Below, in pieces: positions 1,190-10,417 of a DNA stretch of 10,417 bases. Under the pieces are notes generated by a model. The model ran no database searches and was not told where the DNA came from. It was given only the letters and a program-made list of their open reading frames with translations. The stretch spans positions 1-10,417 of the forward strand of contig JASHUX010000066.1 of the NCBI GenBank assembly GCA_030039775.1, in the 5' to 3' direction. The number at the start of each line of letters is the position of its first letter. The stretch's first letter is position 1. The position numbers and the translations under genes were made by a program. This DNA comes from Alphaproteobacteria bacterium. Its GTDB lineage: Bacteria > Pseudomonadota > Alphaproteobacteria > ATCC43930 > CGMCC-115725.

Positions 1190-1435
1190 ATGCGCGCGCG
1201 CGTTGCGAAATGGGGCAACAGTCTGGGGGTGCGGATTCCGCGCGAAATTGCGGATCGCGCCGGCATGTCCGAAGGTAGCGAGATCGAGATCGAGGCGAAG
1301 GGCGAGCGCGTCGTCATCGCGCCGGCGCGTAAGCGCTACAAGCTCGACGATCTGCTTAAAGGCATGACGCCGGAAGCGATGCACGAGGCCTTCGACTGGG
1401 GACCTGATCGCGGTCGTGAAGCGATCGACGAATGA
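1190..1435 (+). CDS. mazE: MazE-type antitoxin (AbrB/SpoVT DNA-binding fold)
   Basis: An 81-residue antitoxin of a type II toxin-antitoxin pair. Residues 1-45 match the MazE/AbrB swapped-hairpin domain: VAKWGNSLGVRIP at 5-17, then a turn and EGSEIEIEAKGERVVI. This domain dimerises and binds the operon's own promoter. The acidic C-terminal part (about 46-81, with DDLLKGMTPE and EAFDWG) is the segment that in this family wraps around and inhibits the MazF ribonuclease. The ATG lies directly after the AT-rich promoter island with no Shine-Dalgarno sequence in front (only CCCC), consistent with leaderless translation. The stop overlaps the next start (ATGA, 1432-1435), so the two genes are translationally coupled. 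Confidence 0.9.
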   Translation: MRARVAKWGNSLGVRIPREIADRAGMSEGSEIEIEAKGERVVIAPARKRYKLDDLLKGMTPEAMHEAFDWGPDRGREAIDE

Positions 1436-1800
1436 CGTCGCGCCGCGCGGCTACGGCTTACGAGCCGGATGCGGGCGATCTCATCTGGACCGATTTCGAG
1501 CCGCGCACCGGTCGCGAGCAAGGCGGCCGGCGCCCCGCCCTTGTGATTTCACCGGCCGCGTTCTGGCGCGCCAGCCACTTCGTCATTGTGTGCCCGATCA
1601 CGTCGCGTGTCCGACCGTTCGCGACCAGCGTCCTCTTGCCGGAGGGTATCGGCATCGCGGGCGAAATTTTGGTCAGCCACATCCGCAGCATCGACGCTGA
1701 CGGGCGGCCCATCGCCTTCGCAGGCGCTCGTGTCGGCGAAGCGGTGATCGCCGATGTGCGCGCAAAGCTCGCTGCGTTGGTCGGCTTTGATGCGGGATAG
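1432..1800 (+). CDS. mazF: MazF/PemK-family toxin endoribonuclease
   Basis: A 122-residue toxin, the usual length for MazF/PemK (about 110-120), which cleaves single-stranded RNA at short specific sequences. Family hallmarks are visible: GDLIWTDFEPRTG at residues 15-27, then GGRRPALVISP (31-41), where Arg34 corresponds to catalytic Arg29 of E. coli MazF. CPITSRVRPF (54-63) carries the conserved Thr after the third strand, and GEILVSHIRSIDA (77-89) follows. All key positions look intact, so the toxin should be active. The start overlaps the mazE stop by 4 bases, the normal antitoxin-toxin layout. About 10 extra N-terminal residues precede the conserved core. The cleavage motif cannot be predicted from sequence alone. 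Confidence 0.92.
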   Translation: MTSRRAATAYEPDAGDLIWTDFEPRTGREQGGRRPALVISPAAFWRASHFVIVCPITSRVRPFATSVLLPEGIGIAGEILVSHIRSIDADGRPIAFAGARVGEAVIADVRAKLAALVGFDAG

Positions 1801-6575: not shown

Positions 6576-6585
6576 GGCCGACGCC

Positions 6586-7077
6586 ATGAGACTCAGCACC
6601 AAGGGCCGCTATGCCGTTATGGCGATGGTCGATCTCGCGAAACACAGCGACGGTCAGCCGGTCGTCCTCGCCGATATCGCCGAACGTCAGGCGATTTCTC
6701 TCTCCTACCTCGAACAGCTTTTCGCCAAGCTCCGCAATGGCGGGCTCGTGAAAAGCGTGCGCGGGCCGGGCGGCGGCTATCTCCTTGGCCACGGTGCCGA
6801 CGAAACCCGCATTTCCGACATAATCCTTGCCGTTGATGAGCCCATTCGGGCCACGCGCTGCACCCCGGGCGCGCCGCTTGGCTGCAGCGGCAACAAGGTG
6901 CGCTGCCTTACCCACGATTTGTGGGAGGAGCTCGGCAACCAGATTCACCTCTATCTCAGCTCCGTGACGCTGGCGGATGTGGTGGCACAGCGCGTGCTTG
7001 GCCTGTCCGGCGTGATCCACCGCGCCGCGCATGGCGTCTATGAACCCGACAGCGAAAGACCGGCGCTGACCCAGTGA
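6586..7077 (+). CDS. iscR: Rrf2-family Fe-S regulator IscR
   Basis: A 163-residue transcription regulator. The start [18 protein letters not shown], the winged helix-turn-helix (about 25-68, with RGPGGGYLL) and a cluster-ligand region are all present. The ligand region has Cys92, Cys100, Cys107 and His110, the three Cys plus His known to hold the [2Fe-2S] cluster in E. coli IscR. Spacing here is C-x7-C-x6-C-x2-H, longer than the E. coli C-x5-C-x5-C-x2-H. The family represses isc genes when cluster supply is sufficient. GAGG (6574-6577) lies 8 bases before the ATG, and cysE ends only 10 bases upstream, so iscR has no obvious promoter of its own. Its TGA overlaps the GTG start of the next gene (GTGA, 7074-7077). 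Confidence 0.94.
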
Positions 7078-8177
7078 GCGGCCCCGCCTATCTCGACTGG
7101 AACGCGACCACGCCCTTGCGGCCGGAAGCCGCGGCAGCGATGGCAGAGACGTTGGCGCATACCGGCAACCCATCGTCGGTGCATCGCGCCGGCCGCGAAG
7201 CGAAGAAGCTGCTCGATCAGGCCCGCGCCCGGGTGGCCGAACGGGTCCGCGTTGCACCCGCCTATGTGACGTTCACCGGCGGCGGCACCGAGGCCAATCA
7301 CCTCGCGCTGCGCGGCCTGCCGGAGCGCCGGTTGATCGTGTCGATGATCGAGCACGATTCGGTGTTGGCGGCGGAGCCCGATGCGGCACGCCTGCCGGTC
7401 ACGCCCGACGGCGTCGCCGATCTCGATTCGCTCGACCGCATCCTGACGGCGGATCCGCGCCCGGCGCTGGTGTCGCTGATGTTGGCCAACAACGAGACCG
7501 GGGCGATCCAGCCGGTCGCCGAAGCGGCCCGGATCGCGCATCGCCATGGCGCCTTGCTCCATTGCGACGCAGTCCAGGCGTTCGGAAAAATTACGTTCAA
7601 TTACAGTGAATTGGGCGCCGATCTGATGACCGTTTCGGGACACAAGATCGGCGGGCCGATGGGCGTTGGCGCGTTGATCGCATCGCCCGATCTGCCGATC
7701 CAGGCCCTGCAGACCGGCGGCGGCCAAGAGCGCGGCCGCCGCGCCGGCACGGAGAACCTACCGGGCATCGTCGGGTTCGGCACCGCCGCGAATCGGGCCG
7801 AGCCGGACGACGGCCGCATCGCCGCGCTCCGCGACCGGACCGAACGCCGCCTCGTCGCCGTCGCACCCGATGCTCATATCCATGGCGGGAGCGTTCGTCG
7901 TCTTCCCAATACGACCTGCATCTCCATGCCCGGCGTCGCCGCCGCGACGCAAGTGATGGCGCTCGACCTCGCCGGTGTGATGGTCAGCGCCGGCTCAGCC
8001 TGTTCCTCGGGCAAAGTAAAGCGTTCGCACGTGCTCGACGCGATGGGCGTGCCCTCAGCGCTCGCCGAATCAGCGATCCGCATCAGCCTCGGCTGGAGCA
8101 CGACCGAAGCCGACATCGACCGGCTGGTGGAGGCGTGGGGGGCGCTTTACGCGCGTACACGGAGCCGCGCCGCATGA
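7074..8177 (+). CDS. NifS-like cysteine desulfurase (first of two)
   Basis: A 367-residue PLP enzyme of aminotransferase class V that removes sulfur from cysteine as a persulfide. It starts at GTG 7074 ([19 protein letters not shown]), the usual family beginning, and overlaps iscR by 4 bases. Visible residues are the TGGGTEANH cofactor loop (68-76), His94, Asp165 in HCDAVQ, the PLP lysine Lys191 in SGHK, and catalytic Cys310 in GSACSSGK. It is shorter than the IscS copy that follows and has a distinct C-terminus, without the extended IscS tail that contacts IscU. A tandem NifS-like/IscS pair is known from ISC operons of Rickettsiales and other alphaproteobacteria, so this is probably an old duplication. 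Whether it serves Fe-S assembly, tRNA thiolation or another acceptor is open. Confidence 0.92.
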
Positions 8178-9364
8178 CCGAACGCCCGATCTATCTCGAT
8201 TACCAGGCGACGACGCCGACCGATCCGCGCGTGGTCGAAGCGATGCTGCCCTATTTCACGGAGAAATTCGGCAACCCCGGTTCCGCGACGCACGCGTACG
8301 GTCGCGAGGCGGAACGGGCGATCGAAACGGCGCGCGGTCAGCTCGCGGCGCTGATCGGCGCGGAGCCACGCGAGATCGTGTTCACCTCCGGCGCGACCGA
8401 ATCGAACAACCTCGCCATCAAAGGCGCCGCGCATTTTCACCGGACGCAAGCGAGGGAACAAGATTTTCGCGATCATGTCGTCACGGTCGCGGCCGAGCAC
8501 AAGTGCGTACTCGAGGCGGCAAAGGCGCTTGAGCCCGATGGGTTCCGGGTGACGTTCCTCGGCGTCGACGGCGACGGCATTGTCGATCCCGAAGCGGTGC
8601 GGCGGGTCGTCGACGATCGCACGGCCATCGTCTCGGTCATGGCAGCGAACAACGAGATCGGCGTGATCCAGCCGCTCAAGGAAATCGCCGCGATCTGCCG
8701 CGCGGCCGGCGCCTTGTTCCATACCGACGCGGCGCAGGCGATCGGAAAAATTTCATTCAACGTCAGTGAATTGGGGATCGATCTTGCGTCCATCTCCGGG
8801 CACAAAATGTACGGGCCGAAGGGGATCGGCGCGCTGTACGTTCGGCGTCGGCCGCGCGCCCGGATCGCGCGCTTGATCGATGGCGGCGGCCAGGAGCGCG
8901 GCCTGCGTTCCGGGACTCTGCCGACCCCGCTCATCGTTGGAATCGGTGCCGCCGCTGCCATCGCCCAGGCGGAAATGACTCAGGAATCGATCCGCCTGAC
9001 GCATTTGCGGCGGCGCCTGTTATCCCGCATCGAAAAGCTGGTTCCCGGGATTCAACTCAACGGCGATCCCGAGCGGCGCCTGCCCGGTAATCTCAATCTC
9101 AGTTTTCCCGGCGTAAACGCCGCCGAGCTGATGGAGAATTGCCCTGGGGTCGCGGTGTCGTCGGGCTCGGCCTGCTCTTCCGCCGAGCTCGAGCCGTCTT
9201 ATGTGCTCCGGGCGTTGGGCTTTTCCGACGAGCGTGCAGCCGCGAGCATCCGCGTCGGCCTTGGCCGCATGACCACCGAAGCCGACATCGATCGCGCCGC
9301 CGACCTCTTAGCCGCCGCCTGGCGCGGCCTGCTTACCGCGCCGGATGAAAAGGCGCAGGCGTAA
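8174..9364 (+). CDS. iscS: Cysteine desulfurase IscS
   Basis: A 396-residue group I desulfurase, close to the usual IscS length of about 404. It begins [16 protein letters not shown]. The TSGATESNN loop is at 71-79, His109 is in AAEHK, DAAQ is at 185-188, and Lys211 in [10 protein letters not shown] holds PLP. Catalytic Cys334 lies in the mobile loop [15 protein letters not shown]. It supplies persulfide sulfur to scaffold and thiolation partners. GGAG (8161-8164) lies 9 bases before the ATG, which overlaps the previous stop (ATGA). In standard ISC operons the scaffold gene iscU follows directly; here the next gene, 45 bases on, is an A-type carrier. The final EKAQA tail differs from the E. 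coli end, so the IscU-binding surface may have changed. Confidence 0.95.
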
Positions 9365-9409: not shown

Positions 9410-9748
9410 ATGGCACTTCGTCAGGCAATGACCATCACCGACGCCGCCGCGGAACGCATTCAAGCGTTGATCGCTAAGCGCGGCAAGGAGTCGCTCGGCA
9501 TCCGTGTCGGCGTGCGGTCGCGCGGCTGCTCCGGCCTGACCTACACGCTCGAATATGCCGACGAAAAGGGCAAATTCGACGAAGTGGTGAGCGACAAGGG
9601 CGTCACCATCTTGATCGACCCGAAAGCGACCATGTTCATCATCGGCACCGAGATGGATTACGTCGAGGACAAGCTCCAGTCCGGCTTCACCTTCCGCAAT
9701 CCCAATGAGAAGGGCCGCTGCGGTTGCGGCGAATCCTTCCATGTCTAG
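9410..9748 (+). CDS. iscA: A-type Fe-S carrier protein (IscA/SufA family)
   Basis: A 112-residue protein, the normal family length, that carries or inserts Fe-S clusters into target enzymes. MTITDAAAERIQAL opens the HesB/IscA fold. The three cluster-binding cysteines are present: Cys40 in RGCSGLTY, then Cys104 and Cys106 in the C-terminal CGCGESF. The 45-base gap after iscS contains its own likely promoter and no trace of iscU. Its position between iscS and fdx favours the name iscA; erpA- or sufA-like function cannot be ruled out on sequence. The next gene starts 6 bases after its TAG. Confidence 0.93.
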   Translation: MALRQAMTITDAAAERIQALIAKRGKESLGIRVGVRSRGCSGLTYTLEYADEKGKFDEVVSDKGVTILIDPKATMFIIGTEMDYVEDKLQSGFTFRNPNEKGRCGCGESFHV

Positions 9749-9754
9749 CGCGGC

Positions 9755-10183
9755 ATGGCGCAGGAACCCAGTCCGATAAAGCTGTTTCAGATCGAGGAGC
9801 CCGGCGGCGCCCCCGAGGCCGAGGACGGCTTCGGCATGGCGGTCGGCATCGAGCTGTCGAAGCGCGGCGGCGCCTCGGTCGCCGCGGCGATCGGCGGCAA
9901 CGCCGAGCTGATCGTACGGCCGGCGCCGGGCGGCATTGCGGGCACGCCGACCGACGCGATGCTCGGCGATTTGCTGCGCGATTTGCGCTCGCTGGCGGAA
10001 AAGGCGATCGCACGCCCGGTGACTCATGCCGTGGTCCGGATCGACGGATTCGACATGACCGACGCGGCGGTAGTGACCGCGGCGGCGAAGGCCGGCCTGG
10101 CGCTGCTTGGCATCAAGCGCGACGGCGATGTGCTCGCCGCCGCCATCGAAGCCGAGGATCTCGCCGCCATTCTTTCCGAGTGA
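9755..10183 (+). CDS. HscA-derived mini-protein (truncated Hsp70 ATPase-domain remnant) in the ISC operon
   Basis: A 142-residue protein in the place where hscA normally stands, 6 bases after iscA and 10 bases before fdx. Residues 9-34 (KLFQIEEPGGAP, then MAVGIEL) parallel the HscA-specific leader LLQIxEPG and the first Hsp70 strand (AVGIDLGTTNS). The phosphate-binding GTTN is missing; SKRG stands there instead. Residues 73-96 (LLRDLRSLAEKA, then PVTHAVVRI) and 109-131 (AAAKAGLALLGI, then DVLAAAI) parallel the Hsp70 stretch running from ILKxLxxxAE through the AGLxVLRxxNEPTAAA helix. Everything else of the ATPase domain and the whole substrate-binding domain is absent. It should not bind ATP normally or handle the LPPVK motif of IscU. 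The frame is intact with strong GC-rich third positions, so it looks maintained and not decayed. No clear ribosome-binding site is seen. The homology is read by eye from recalled family sequences. Confidence 0.7.
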   Translation: MAQEPSPIKLFQIEEPGGAPEAEDGFGMAVGIELSKRGGASVAAAIGGNAELIVRPAPGGIAGTPTDAMLGDLLRDLRSLAEKAIARPVTHAVVRIDGFDMTDAAVVTAAAKAGLALLGIKRDGDVLAAAIEAEDLAAILSE

Positions 10184-10193
10184 GTTTCTTCGC

Positions 10194-10417
10194 ATGCCCA
10201 AAATGACGTTCATCGAACGGGACGGCAACCGGCGCGAGGTCGACGCGCCGCTGGGCCTGTCCGTGCTGGAGATCGCGCACAAGCACGGGGTCGATATCGA
10301 GGGCGCGTGCGAAGGCTCGCTCGCCTGCTCGACCTGCCACGTCATTGTCGATCCCGATTGGTACGACGTGCTGAAGGACGCGAGCGAGGACGAGGAGGAT
10401 ATGCTCGATCTCGCGTT
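10194..10417 (+). CDS. fdx: ISC-type [2Fe-2S] ferredoxin, 3' end outside the window
   Basis: The first 74 codons of an adrenodoxin-type ferredoxin. MPKMTFIERDGNRREVDAP opens the beta-grasp fold. The cluster loop holds Cys39, Cys45 and Cys48 (GACEGSLACSTCHV), and the typical acidic segment ASEDEEDMLDLA follows. The fourth Cys, expected some 35-40 residues further on, lies beyond the right edge. Fdx of this type supplies electrons for IscS/IscU-based cluster assembly. It begins 10 bases after the mini-HscA stop, as fdx follows hscA in standard ISC operons, which supports the origin proposed for that small gene. Confidence 0.95.
   Translation, partial: MPKMTFIERDGNRREVDAPLGLSVLEIAHKHGVDIEGACEGSLACSTCHVIVDPDWYDVLKDASEDEEDMLDLA

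Follow-up and report, generated by a model that had tools for sequence, protein, structure and literature searches.

The usual picture of an Hsp70 is that of an ATP-driven machine with two domains. The locus described here raises the question of what an ORF of only 142 residues is doing at the position of hscA in an ISC operon, and whether its product is a decaying remnant of HscA or a protein with a job of its own. A first-pass annotation of this DNA had proposed that the ORF is a shrunken HscA with a new role, and we followed up that proposal by comparison with related genomes.

The mini-HscA gene and its operon

The window (the whole stretch of DNA that was analyzed) is one entire contig of 10,417 bases from a genome that is 71% complete. 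Its right end carries, in order, cysE (called by eye and from the loci of relatives), iscR, a NifS-like desulfurase gene, iscS, iscA, the 142-residue ORF, and fdx. The Rrf2 regulator gene iscR is at 6580..7077 (+) and is followed by the gene for the NifS-like enzyme, which is the second cysteine desulfurase of the operon, at 7074..8177 (+). The iscS cysteine desulfurase gene is at 8177..9364 (+), with a start that was picked by eye (an alternative in-frame GTG is at 8135), and its product matches the IscS model at 3 to 373 of 402 and is without the canonical IscU-binding C-terminal tail. The A-type carrier gene iscA is at 9410..9748 (+). The intact ORF that had been annotated between iscA and fdx is indeed present at 9755..10183 (+), 6 bp downstream of iscA and 10 bp upstream of fdx; we refer to its product as mini-HscA. 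The [2Fe-2S] ferredoxin gene fdx, at 10194..10417 (+), begins with the ATG at 10194 and has its 3' part beyond the contig end, and the ferredoxin is full length at 20 of 20 relative loci.

The close spacing is common among relatives. The gap from iscA to the mini-HscA gene is ≤30 bp in 32 of 43 locus rows, with gaps of 145 to 279 bp also present, and the gap from the mini-HscA gene to fdx, counting overlaps, is ≤30 bp in 37 of 41. The fdx starts are rough, and many genomes enter these rows twice. Two loci from genus g6 (L044 and L047) have ~200 bp between iscA and the mini-HscA gene. The desulfurase genes at 7074-8177 and 8177-9364 (+) stand in tandem, and the first of them, the NifS-like one, is also found in the operon of Allostella. 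Elsewhere in the window, small overlapping ORFs at 1190-1435 and 1432-1800 (+) resemble, by eye, an AbrB/MazE-type antitoxin and a MazF/PemK-type toxin.

Descent from HscA

Taken singly, the window protein has no significant match to a Pfam or NCBIfam model. Its best match, to DUF6661 (E value of 0.11), was discarded as noise, as was a match to gamma-glutamyltransferase (E value of 0.024), and against PDB sequences it has a weak match to a BiP domain (E value of 0.16). We rest the likeness to HscA on the orthologue profile, at the level of the family, and not on the window protein alone. The profile was made from an alignment (A1) of 22 of the 27 short orthologues; the absent ones are L007, which is truncated at a contig end, and L014, L019, L027, and L029, which were set aside to keep down the number of near relatives. 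When A1 was compared by HHalign with an alignment of 7 full HscA proteins (A2), the probability was 98.9 and the E value was 1.9e-17 over HscA residues 1 to 191, a match that ends ahead of the terminal helix. When the A1 profile was compared with PDB sequences, it matched Hsp70 domains in three pieces in order with an E value of 2e-10 for the whole match; taken one at a time, only the piece for subdomain IA segment 2 reaches significance (2.6e-6), with a weak value for the first piece (0.88) and no significance for the last.

At an E value of ≤0.01, Pfam HSP70 matches 9 of the 22 orthologues and an HscA model matches 11 of the 22, with a best E value of 8.1e-12 versus 1e-8 for the best DnaK model. 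The Hsp70 similarity that had been supposed from the single sequence is thus significant at the family level, and, as judged by these profiles, the descent of the 142-residue ORF from HscA is well supported.

Retained and lost parts of HscA

In order to place the retained parts, six conserved A1 blocks were run along full HscA. In the 627-residue HscA of Allostella sp. ATCC 35155, the best matches of the six blocks occur in order at residues 1, 20, 33, 136, 167, and 372, with z scores of 4.6 to 6.4, while runners-up reach at most 3.9. As a control, the scan was extended to all 7 HscA proteins of A2, to 119 fetched proteins of >560 residues, and to 300 shuffles of the Allostella HscA. Five of the six blocks are in order in all 7 HscA proteins, the seventh of which is shorter and has its later positions shifted. 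The observed score was reached by 0 of 300 shuffles for four blocks, by 1 of 300 for the terminal-helix block, and by 16 of 300 for the leader block, so that the leader taken alone is weak. The control likewise weakened the block for strands 2 to 3, which is ambiguous since it falls at 33 to 34 in 3 of the 7 HscA proteins and elsewhere in the other 4, and upheld the remaining four, including the first strand block of IA segment 1, which is firm. The best match of the leader block is nevertheless at HscA residue 1 or 2 in 7 of 7 proteins and falls in bin 0 for 112 of the 119 full HscA proteins. The assignment of the terminal helix is based on one 12-column block, which falls at about residues 370 to 390 in 119 of 119 proteins of >560 residues and has a score of 24.5 in HscA, compared with a best score of 19.7 in five unrelated proteins of the operon.

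These positions were converted to Hsp70 subdomains through an alignment of Allostella HscA with DnaK and the limits given in PMC3531320 (IA, 1 to 37 and 120 to 171; IB, 38 to 119; IIA, 172 to 227 and 311 to 368; IIB, 228 to 310; terminal helix, 369 to 383). The HscA-type leader KLFQIEEPGG, assigned by block scan and homologue comparison, is encoded at 9779..9808 (+), and the histidine of the HscA leader is replaced in it by glutamate. The first strands of IA segment 1 are at 9836..9913 (+), corresponding to HscA residues ~20 to 43, with the nucleotide loop DLGTTNS replaced. IA segment 2, with the conserved R..AE....RPVTHAV, is at 9974..10111 (+), corresponding to HscA ~136 to 183 and DnaK ~120 to 167, and the terminal helix of the nucleotide-binding domain (NBD) is at 10130..10165 (+), corresponding to ~372 to 383 of both HscA and DnaK. 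The leader, the AVGIEL strand, and the Hsp70-like segment of the first-pass annotation are all present; the ending of that segment can now be stated more exactly, since its last stretch, ...LAAAIEAEDLA, fits the NBD terminal helix. From the block matches, it is well supported that mini-HscA is made up of the leader of HscA followed by subdomain IA of Hsp70 and the terminal helix.

Subdomains IB, IIA, and IIB, the linker, and the peptide-binding domain are gone. Mini-HscA stops at a position equivalent to HscA ~383 and so is without the substrate-binding domain for the LPPVK motif of IscU. None of the 29 orthologues (27 short forms, of which one is truncated at a contig end, and 2 forms with 265 residues) has DLGTTNS, DLGGGT, NEPTAA, or VPAYF, and each of these motifs is present in 7 of 7 full HscA proteins. 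These absences bear out the earlier observation that the phosphate loop, most of the nucleotide domain, and the peptide-binding domain have been lost. The strongest conservation in A1 is in the acidic leader, VGGNAE, R..AE....RPVTHAV, and the terminal helix. Among the 22 orthologues of A1 there is no conserved cysteine, and mini-HscA should therefore not itself carry sulfur or clusters. Of the scaffold role that had been suggested for the ORF, a metal or sulfur scaffold that bears a cluster or persulfide is accordingly unlikely.

Conservation and selection

The gene is present in 30 of 39 genomes of the window's family, as 27 short forms (one of which is truncated where its contig ends), 2 forms of 265 residues, and 1 contig-end fragment; a raw tally of 34 of 39 had also taken in DnaK-type matches. 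Ten genomes do not have a whole gene. In three of these, the iscA of the operon is found with only 1, 38, or 106 bases of contig remaining behind it, and the 106-base remainder is in the genome that carries the fragment. The other seven have no iscA of operon type, the best candidate having 36% identity. It follows from this survey that the gene is present at every family locus where the sequence past iscA can be read far enough, and most of the seven apparent losses are indistinguishable from missing assembly. In one genome of genus g4 (G006) that is rated 100% complete, SufB is present, and the operon iscA and the mini-HscA gene seem to be absent. The operon thus seems to be dispensable, judging from this near-complete genome.

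Nine sampled genera retain both the lobe and the leader peptide. Whole short forms have 117 to 161 residues, their starts being taken provisionally as the first start codon met on going upstream from the leader. There is no stop within any match, and the frame is closed in 28 of the 29 extracted genes, the other being cut by a contig end. QIEEP is invariant in the 22 aligned rows. A protein database search gave 2,227 proteins at an E value of ≤1e-3 among 8,000 scored, a number that may include fragments of other Hsp70s; among the 120 homologues listed, QIEEP is near the start in 118 and the length is 149 residues in 60. Where names are given, they are hypothetical protein or "molecular chaperone DnaK (HSP70)," and five are from "Stellaceae bacterium." When 386 genomes were sampled evenly across the class, with at most 10 candidates scored per genome, 3 genomes matched at an E value of ≤1e-12, a threshold that misses the 265-residue forms, and all 3 are from the window's family. 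No match to the window protein was found on plasmids at an E value of 1e-5.

Within genera, dN/dS is 0.14 to 0.41 in 43 of 43 pairs, one of which is the pair of 265-residue forms. These values are rough because synonymous distances are high in many pairs. At the same loci, iscA has dN/dS values of 0.02 to 0.21, so mini-HscA evolves faster than IscA. The substitution pattern indicates that mini-HscA is under purifying selection, a conclusion that is well supported, and we regard the conserved, HscA-derived, single-lobe protein predicted from these alignments as real.

Loss of IscU-related components and presence of SUF

In the 28 family genomes that were tested, 21 of which are at least 90% complete, no protein exceeds the model cutoff for IscU, HscB, or HscA (for the last, NCBIfam TIGR01991). 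U-type matches in the family score only 38 to 52 bits versus a cutoff of 192.4, and the one that was checked, in genome G010, is SufU. A hidden full-length hscA/hscB pair elsewhere, which together with a lack of conserved orthologues would have counted against the first-pass annotation, was therefore discarded as a candidate on these cutoffs. In the window genome (71% complete), the HSP70 matches are two pieces that resemble DnaK and a third match that is short and weak. SufB is present in 26 of the 28 genomes, and there are partial matches in the other two. In G010, the one SUF operon that was examined, SufB is followed by SufC, SufD, SufS, and SufU, and this SufS is a third cysteine desulfurase.

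IscS has changed as well. The canonical C-terminal tail is found in 0 of 20 family IscS sequences and in 8 of 8 readable IscS sequences, from 10 loci, that are beside a true IscU; the Allostella genome (G039), which also has the tail in the comparison with the family sequences, is counted again among these loci. According to PMC2854127, E. coli IscS(Δ376–404), i.e., IscS without residues 376 to 404, does not bind IscU. ISC loss in alphaproteobacteria with SUF is described in general terms in PMC10631705. By model searches and alignment, then, the mini-HscA lineage has SufB and neither IscU nor HscB, and its IscS is without the IscU-docking tail.

A proposed route from an Allostella-like to an Aliidongia-like form

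In another family of the same order, four genomes were sampled, including Allostella sp. ATCC 35155, in which the operon genes stand in the same order and include iscU, hscB, and the gene for an HscA of 627 residues. All four have IscU, HscB, and HscA over the cutoffs and no SufB match. HscA-like proteins of intermediate size, 265 residues, are encoded by Aliidongia dinghuensis and a close relative (L050:8215-9009 and L031:1504-2298), and the A. dinghuensis database protein (P0121) is identical to that of genome G014. Pfam HSP70 recognizes the 265-residue form over its cutoff. A search with this form listed 27 proteins, most of similar length, of which P0146 is only 44% identical, and this suggests that the 265-residue stage has some depth. 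One listed protein of 407 residues, P0144, joins a piece of this type to amidohydrolase-type domains and is perhaps an assembly chimera.

In a quick tree of IscR, NifS, IscS, and IscA (21 rows), the two genomes with 265-residue forms fall outside the other 18 family members with SH-aLRT support of 97; the tree is rooted on the Allostella row alone, as other Stella-group loci had too few operon genes. With one outgroup row and a quick tree, this first-branching intermediate makes a single-step internal deletion unlikely. The first-pass annotation was thus right that HscA has shrunk, and its single internal deletion gives way to several: the alignments indicate that more than one internal deletion is needed, together with loss of the C terminus. 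In the simplest history, cluster assembly would have passed to SUF, IscU, HscB, and the IscU-docking parts would have been lost, and HscA would have shrunk stepwise, from 627 to 265 to ~140 residues, in its ancestral operon slot. Because the Aliidongia form is a halfway form and the Allostella form is full length, this path can be studied directly.

Possible function and rival explanations

We lean toward the reading in which the stepwise-reduced HscA is a conserved, single-lobe, ATP-independent docking subunit of an IscS/IscA/ferredoxin module. Shrinkage in place to a conserved lobe, with loss of the ATP motifs, suggests that the lobe has its own job. In E. coli, Fdx is reported to have copurified with IscS, HscA, and IscA (PMC3750173). 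Since the operon has kept ferredoxin and these reported partners and has lost the parts tied to IscU, we infer an adaptor surface toward ferredoxin, IscA, or IscS. Mini-HscA would retain contacts formerly made by HscA with ferredoxin, IscA, and/or IscS and would hold them together as a redox and sulfur-delivery module that might feed acceptors other than IscU. Two candidate contact surfaces can be named: the acidic leader, which is invariant, and R..AE....RPVTHAV, a conserved basic helix end. A role as an ATP-independent docking subunit with this adaptor mechanism is plausible. Evolutionary rate covariation between mini-HscA and IscS gives a rho of 0.61 (P = 0.002) with 13 of 17 taxa and 0.33 (P = 0.04) with 20 of 26, using the taxa in which all genes are readable and with P values uncorrected for the 21 and 10 pairs tested, respectively. 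The corresponding values for mini-HscA and Fdx are 0.00 and 0.18, and in the 20-taxon set the pairs NifS-Fdx (0.45) and IscS-Fdx (0.44) are stronger. We give these correlations little weight, as they do not firmly single out any partner for mini-HscA. The docking reading also has against it the faster evolution of mini-HscA relative to IscA, the variable length of the short forms, and the apparent dispensability of the operon.

The docking reading has to be weighed against several others. Mini-HscA might be a relic in slow decay, in which HscA has been eroding since the loss of its IscU client and the remnant serves mainly to couple the translation of iscA and fdx. The short gaps on both sides of the gene, its faster evolution relative to IscA, the stepwise shrinkage, and the missing operon in G006 would all fit such a relic. 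However, the uniformly low dN/dS (below 0.42 in every pair), the constancy of QIEEP, and the absence of internal stops, with the frame closed in 28 of 29 genes, speak against decay, and amino acids would not be kept by coupling alone. The long gaps seen at some loci also argue against coupling, and what remains appears to be one structural lobe and no random piece; we therefore find a relic fairly unlikely. A different possibility starts from the missing IscU-docking tail, which is absent from all 20 family IscS sequences, and from the fact that IscS shows the strongest rate covariation with mini-HscA in both taxon sets. Mini-HscA would then sit on the face of IscS as a stand-in at the IscU site and tune sulfur delivery without contact with Fdx or IscA. 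Yet the covariation is weak, with other pairs stronger in the larger set, and the loss of the tail removes a docking site and does not remodel it, which leaves a stand-in of this kind unlikely.

It is very unlikely that mini-HscA is a modulator of DnaK or DnaJ, i.e., a free-standing subdomain IA with DnaK or J-domain proteins as its binding partners. The parent lobe does line the Hsp70 linker cleft together with IIA, according to PMC3531320, and DnaK-type matches exist in the family genomes. However, that cleft requires subdomain IIA, which is absent here, HscB is not found over the cutoff in any of the 28 genomes, and the gene is still in the isc operon with a leader that is peculiar to HscA. 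Finally, the failure of the window protein alone to match any family significantly would be expected of a small ORF that arose by chance, resembles HscA in its leader by coincidence, and is unrelated to HscA. The family profile refutes this idea (E values of 1.9e-17 and 2e-10, with block matches in order), and the synteny with Allostella and the 265-residue intermediate leave a non-HscA origin vanishingly improbable.

Relation to known systems and implications

Compared with the HscA (Hsc66) of Allostella, mini-HscA has the same place before fdx, a leader of the form LxQIxEP, and the same order of IA blocks and terminal helix, but it has 142 residues rather than 627, is without IB, IIA, IIB, the linker, the peptide-binding domain, and the ATP motifs, and has no HscB or IscU partner. 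The 265-residue A. dinghuensis protein and its kin share the operon slot, an IEEP leader, IA, and an end resembling the terminal helix; unlike mini-HscA, they keep, by eye, a remodeled IB region and traces of lobe II. The operon itself has iscR, iscS, iscA, and fdx in the order of iscRSUA-hscBA-fdx but is without iscU and hscB and has a second desulfurase, with SUF elsewhere in the genome. HSPA13/STCH proteins are Hsp70 relatives that do not have the peptide-binding domain and keep the whole nucleotide-binding domain. Both they and mini-HscA are without the substrate-binding part, whereas mini-HscA is one lobe without an ATP site. We searched open-license papers on truncated, degenerate, or reduced HscA or Hsp70 and on ISC-SUF replacement and found no such protein, in agreement with the earlier view that an Hsp70-derived mini-protein in an ISC operon is not known to have been described.

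It is possible, although we hold this only tentatively, that a lobe of an Hsp70 motor, with neither ATP use nor substrate binding, has become a dedicated adaptor for a desulfurase, an A-type carrier, and ferredoxin. This lineage has lost the IscU client, the co-chaperone, motor lobe II, and the peptide-binding domain, and it has held on to one lobe and the leader. It is in effect a natural deletion experiment, which points to a function of HscA apart from IscU and to the parts of the protein in which that function should be sought. If this adaptor reading is true, ordinary HscA would also have a docking site for ferredoxin, IscA, or IscS in its leader and subdomain IA.
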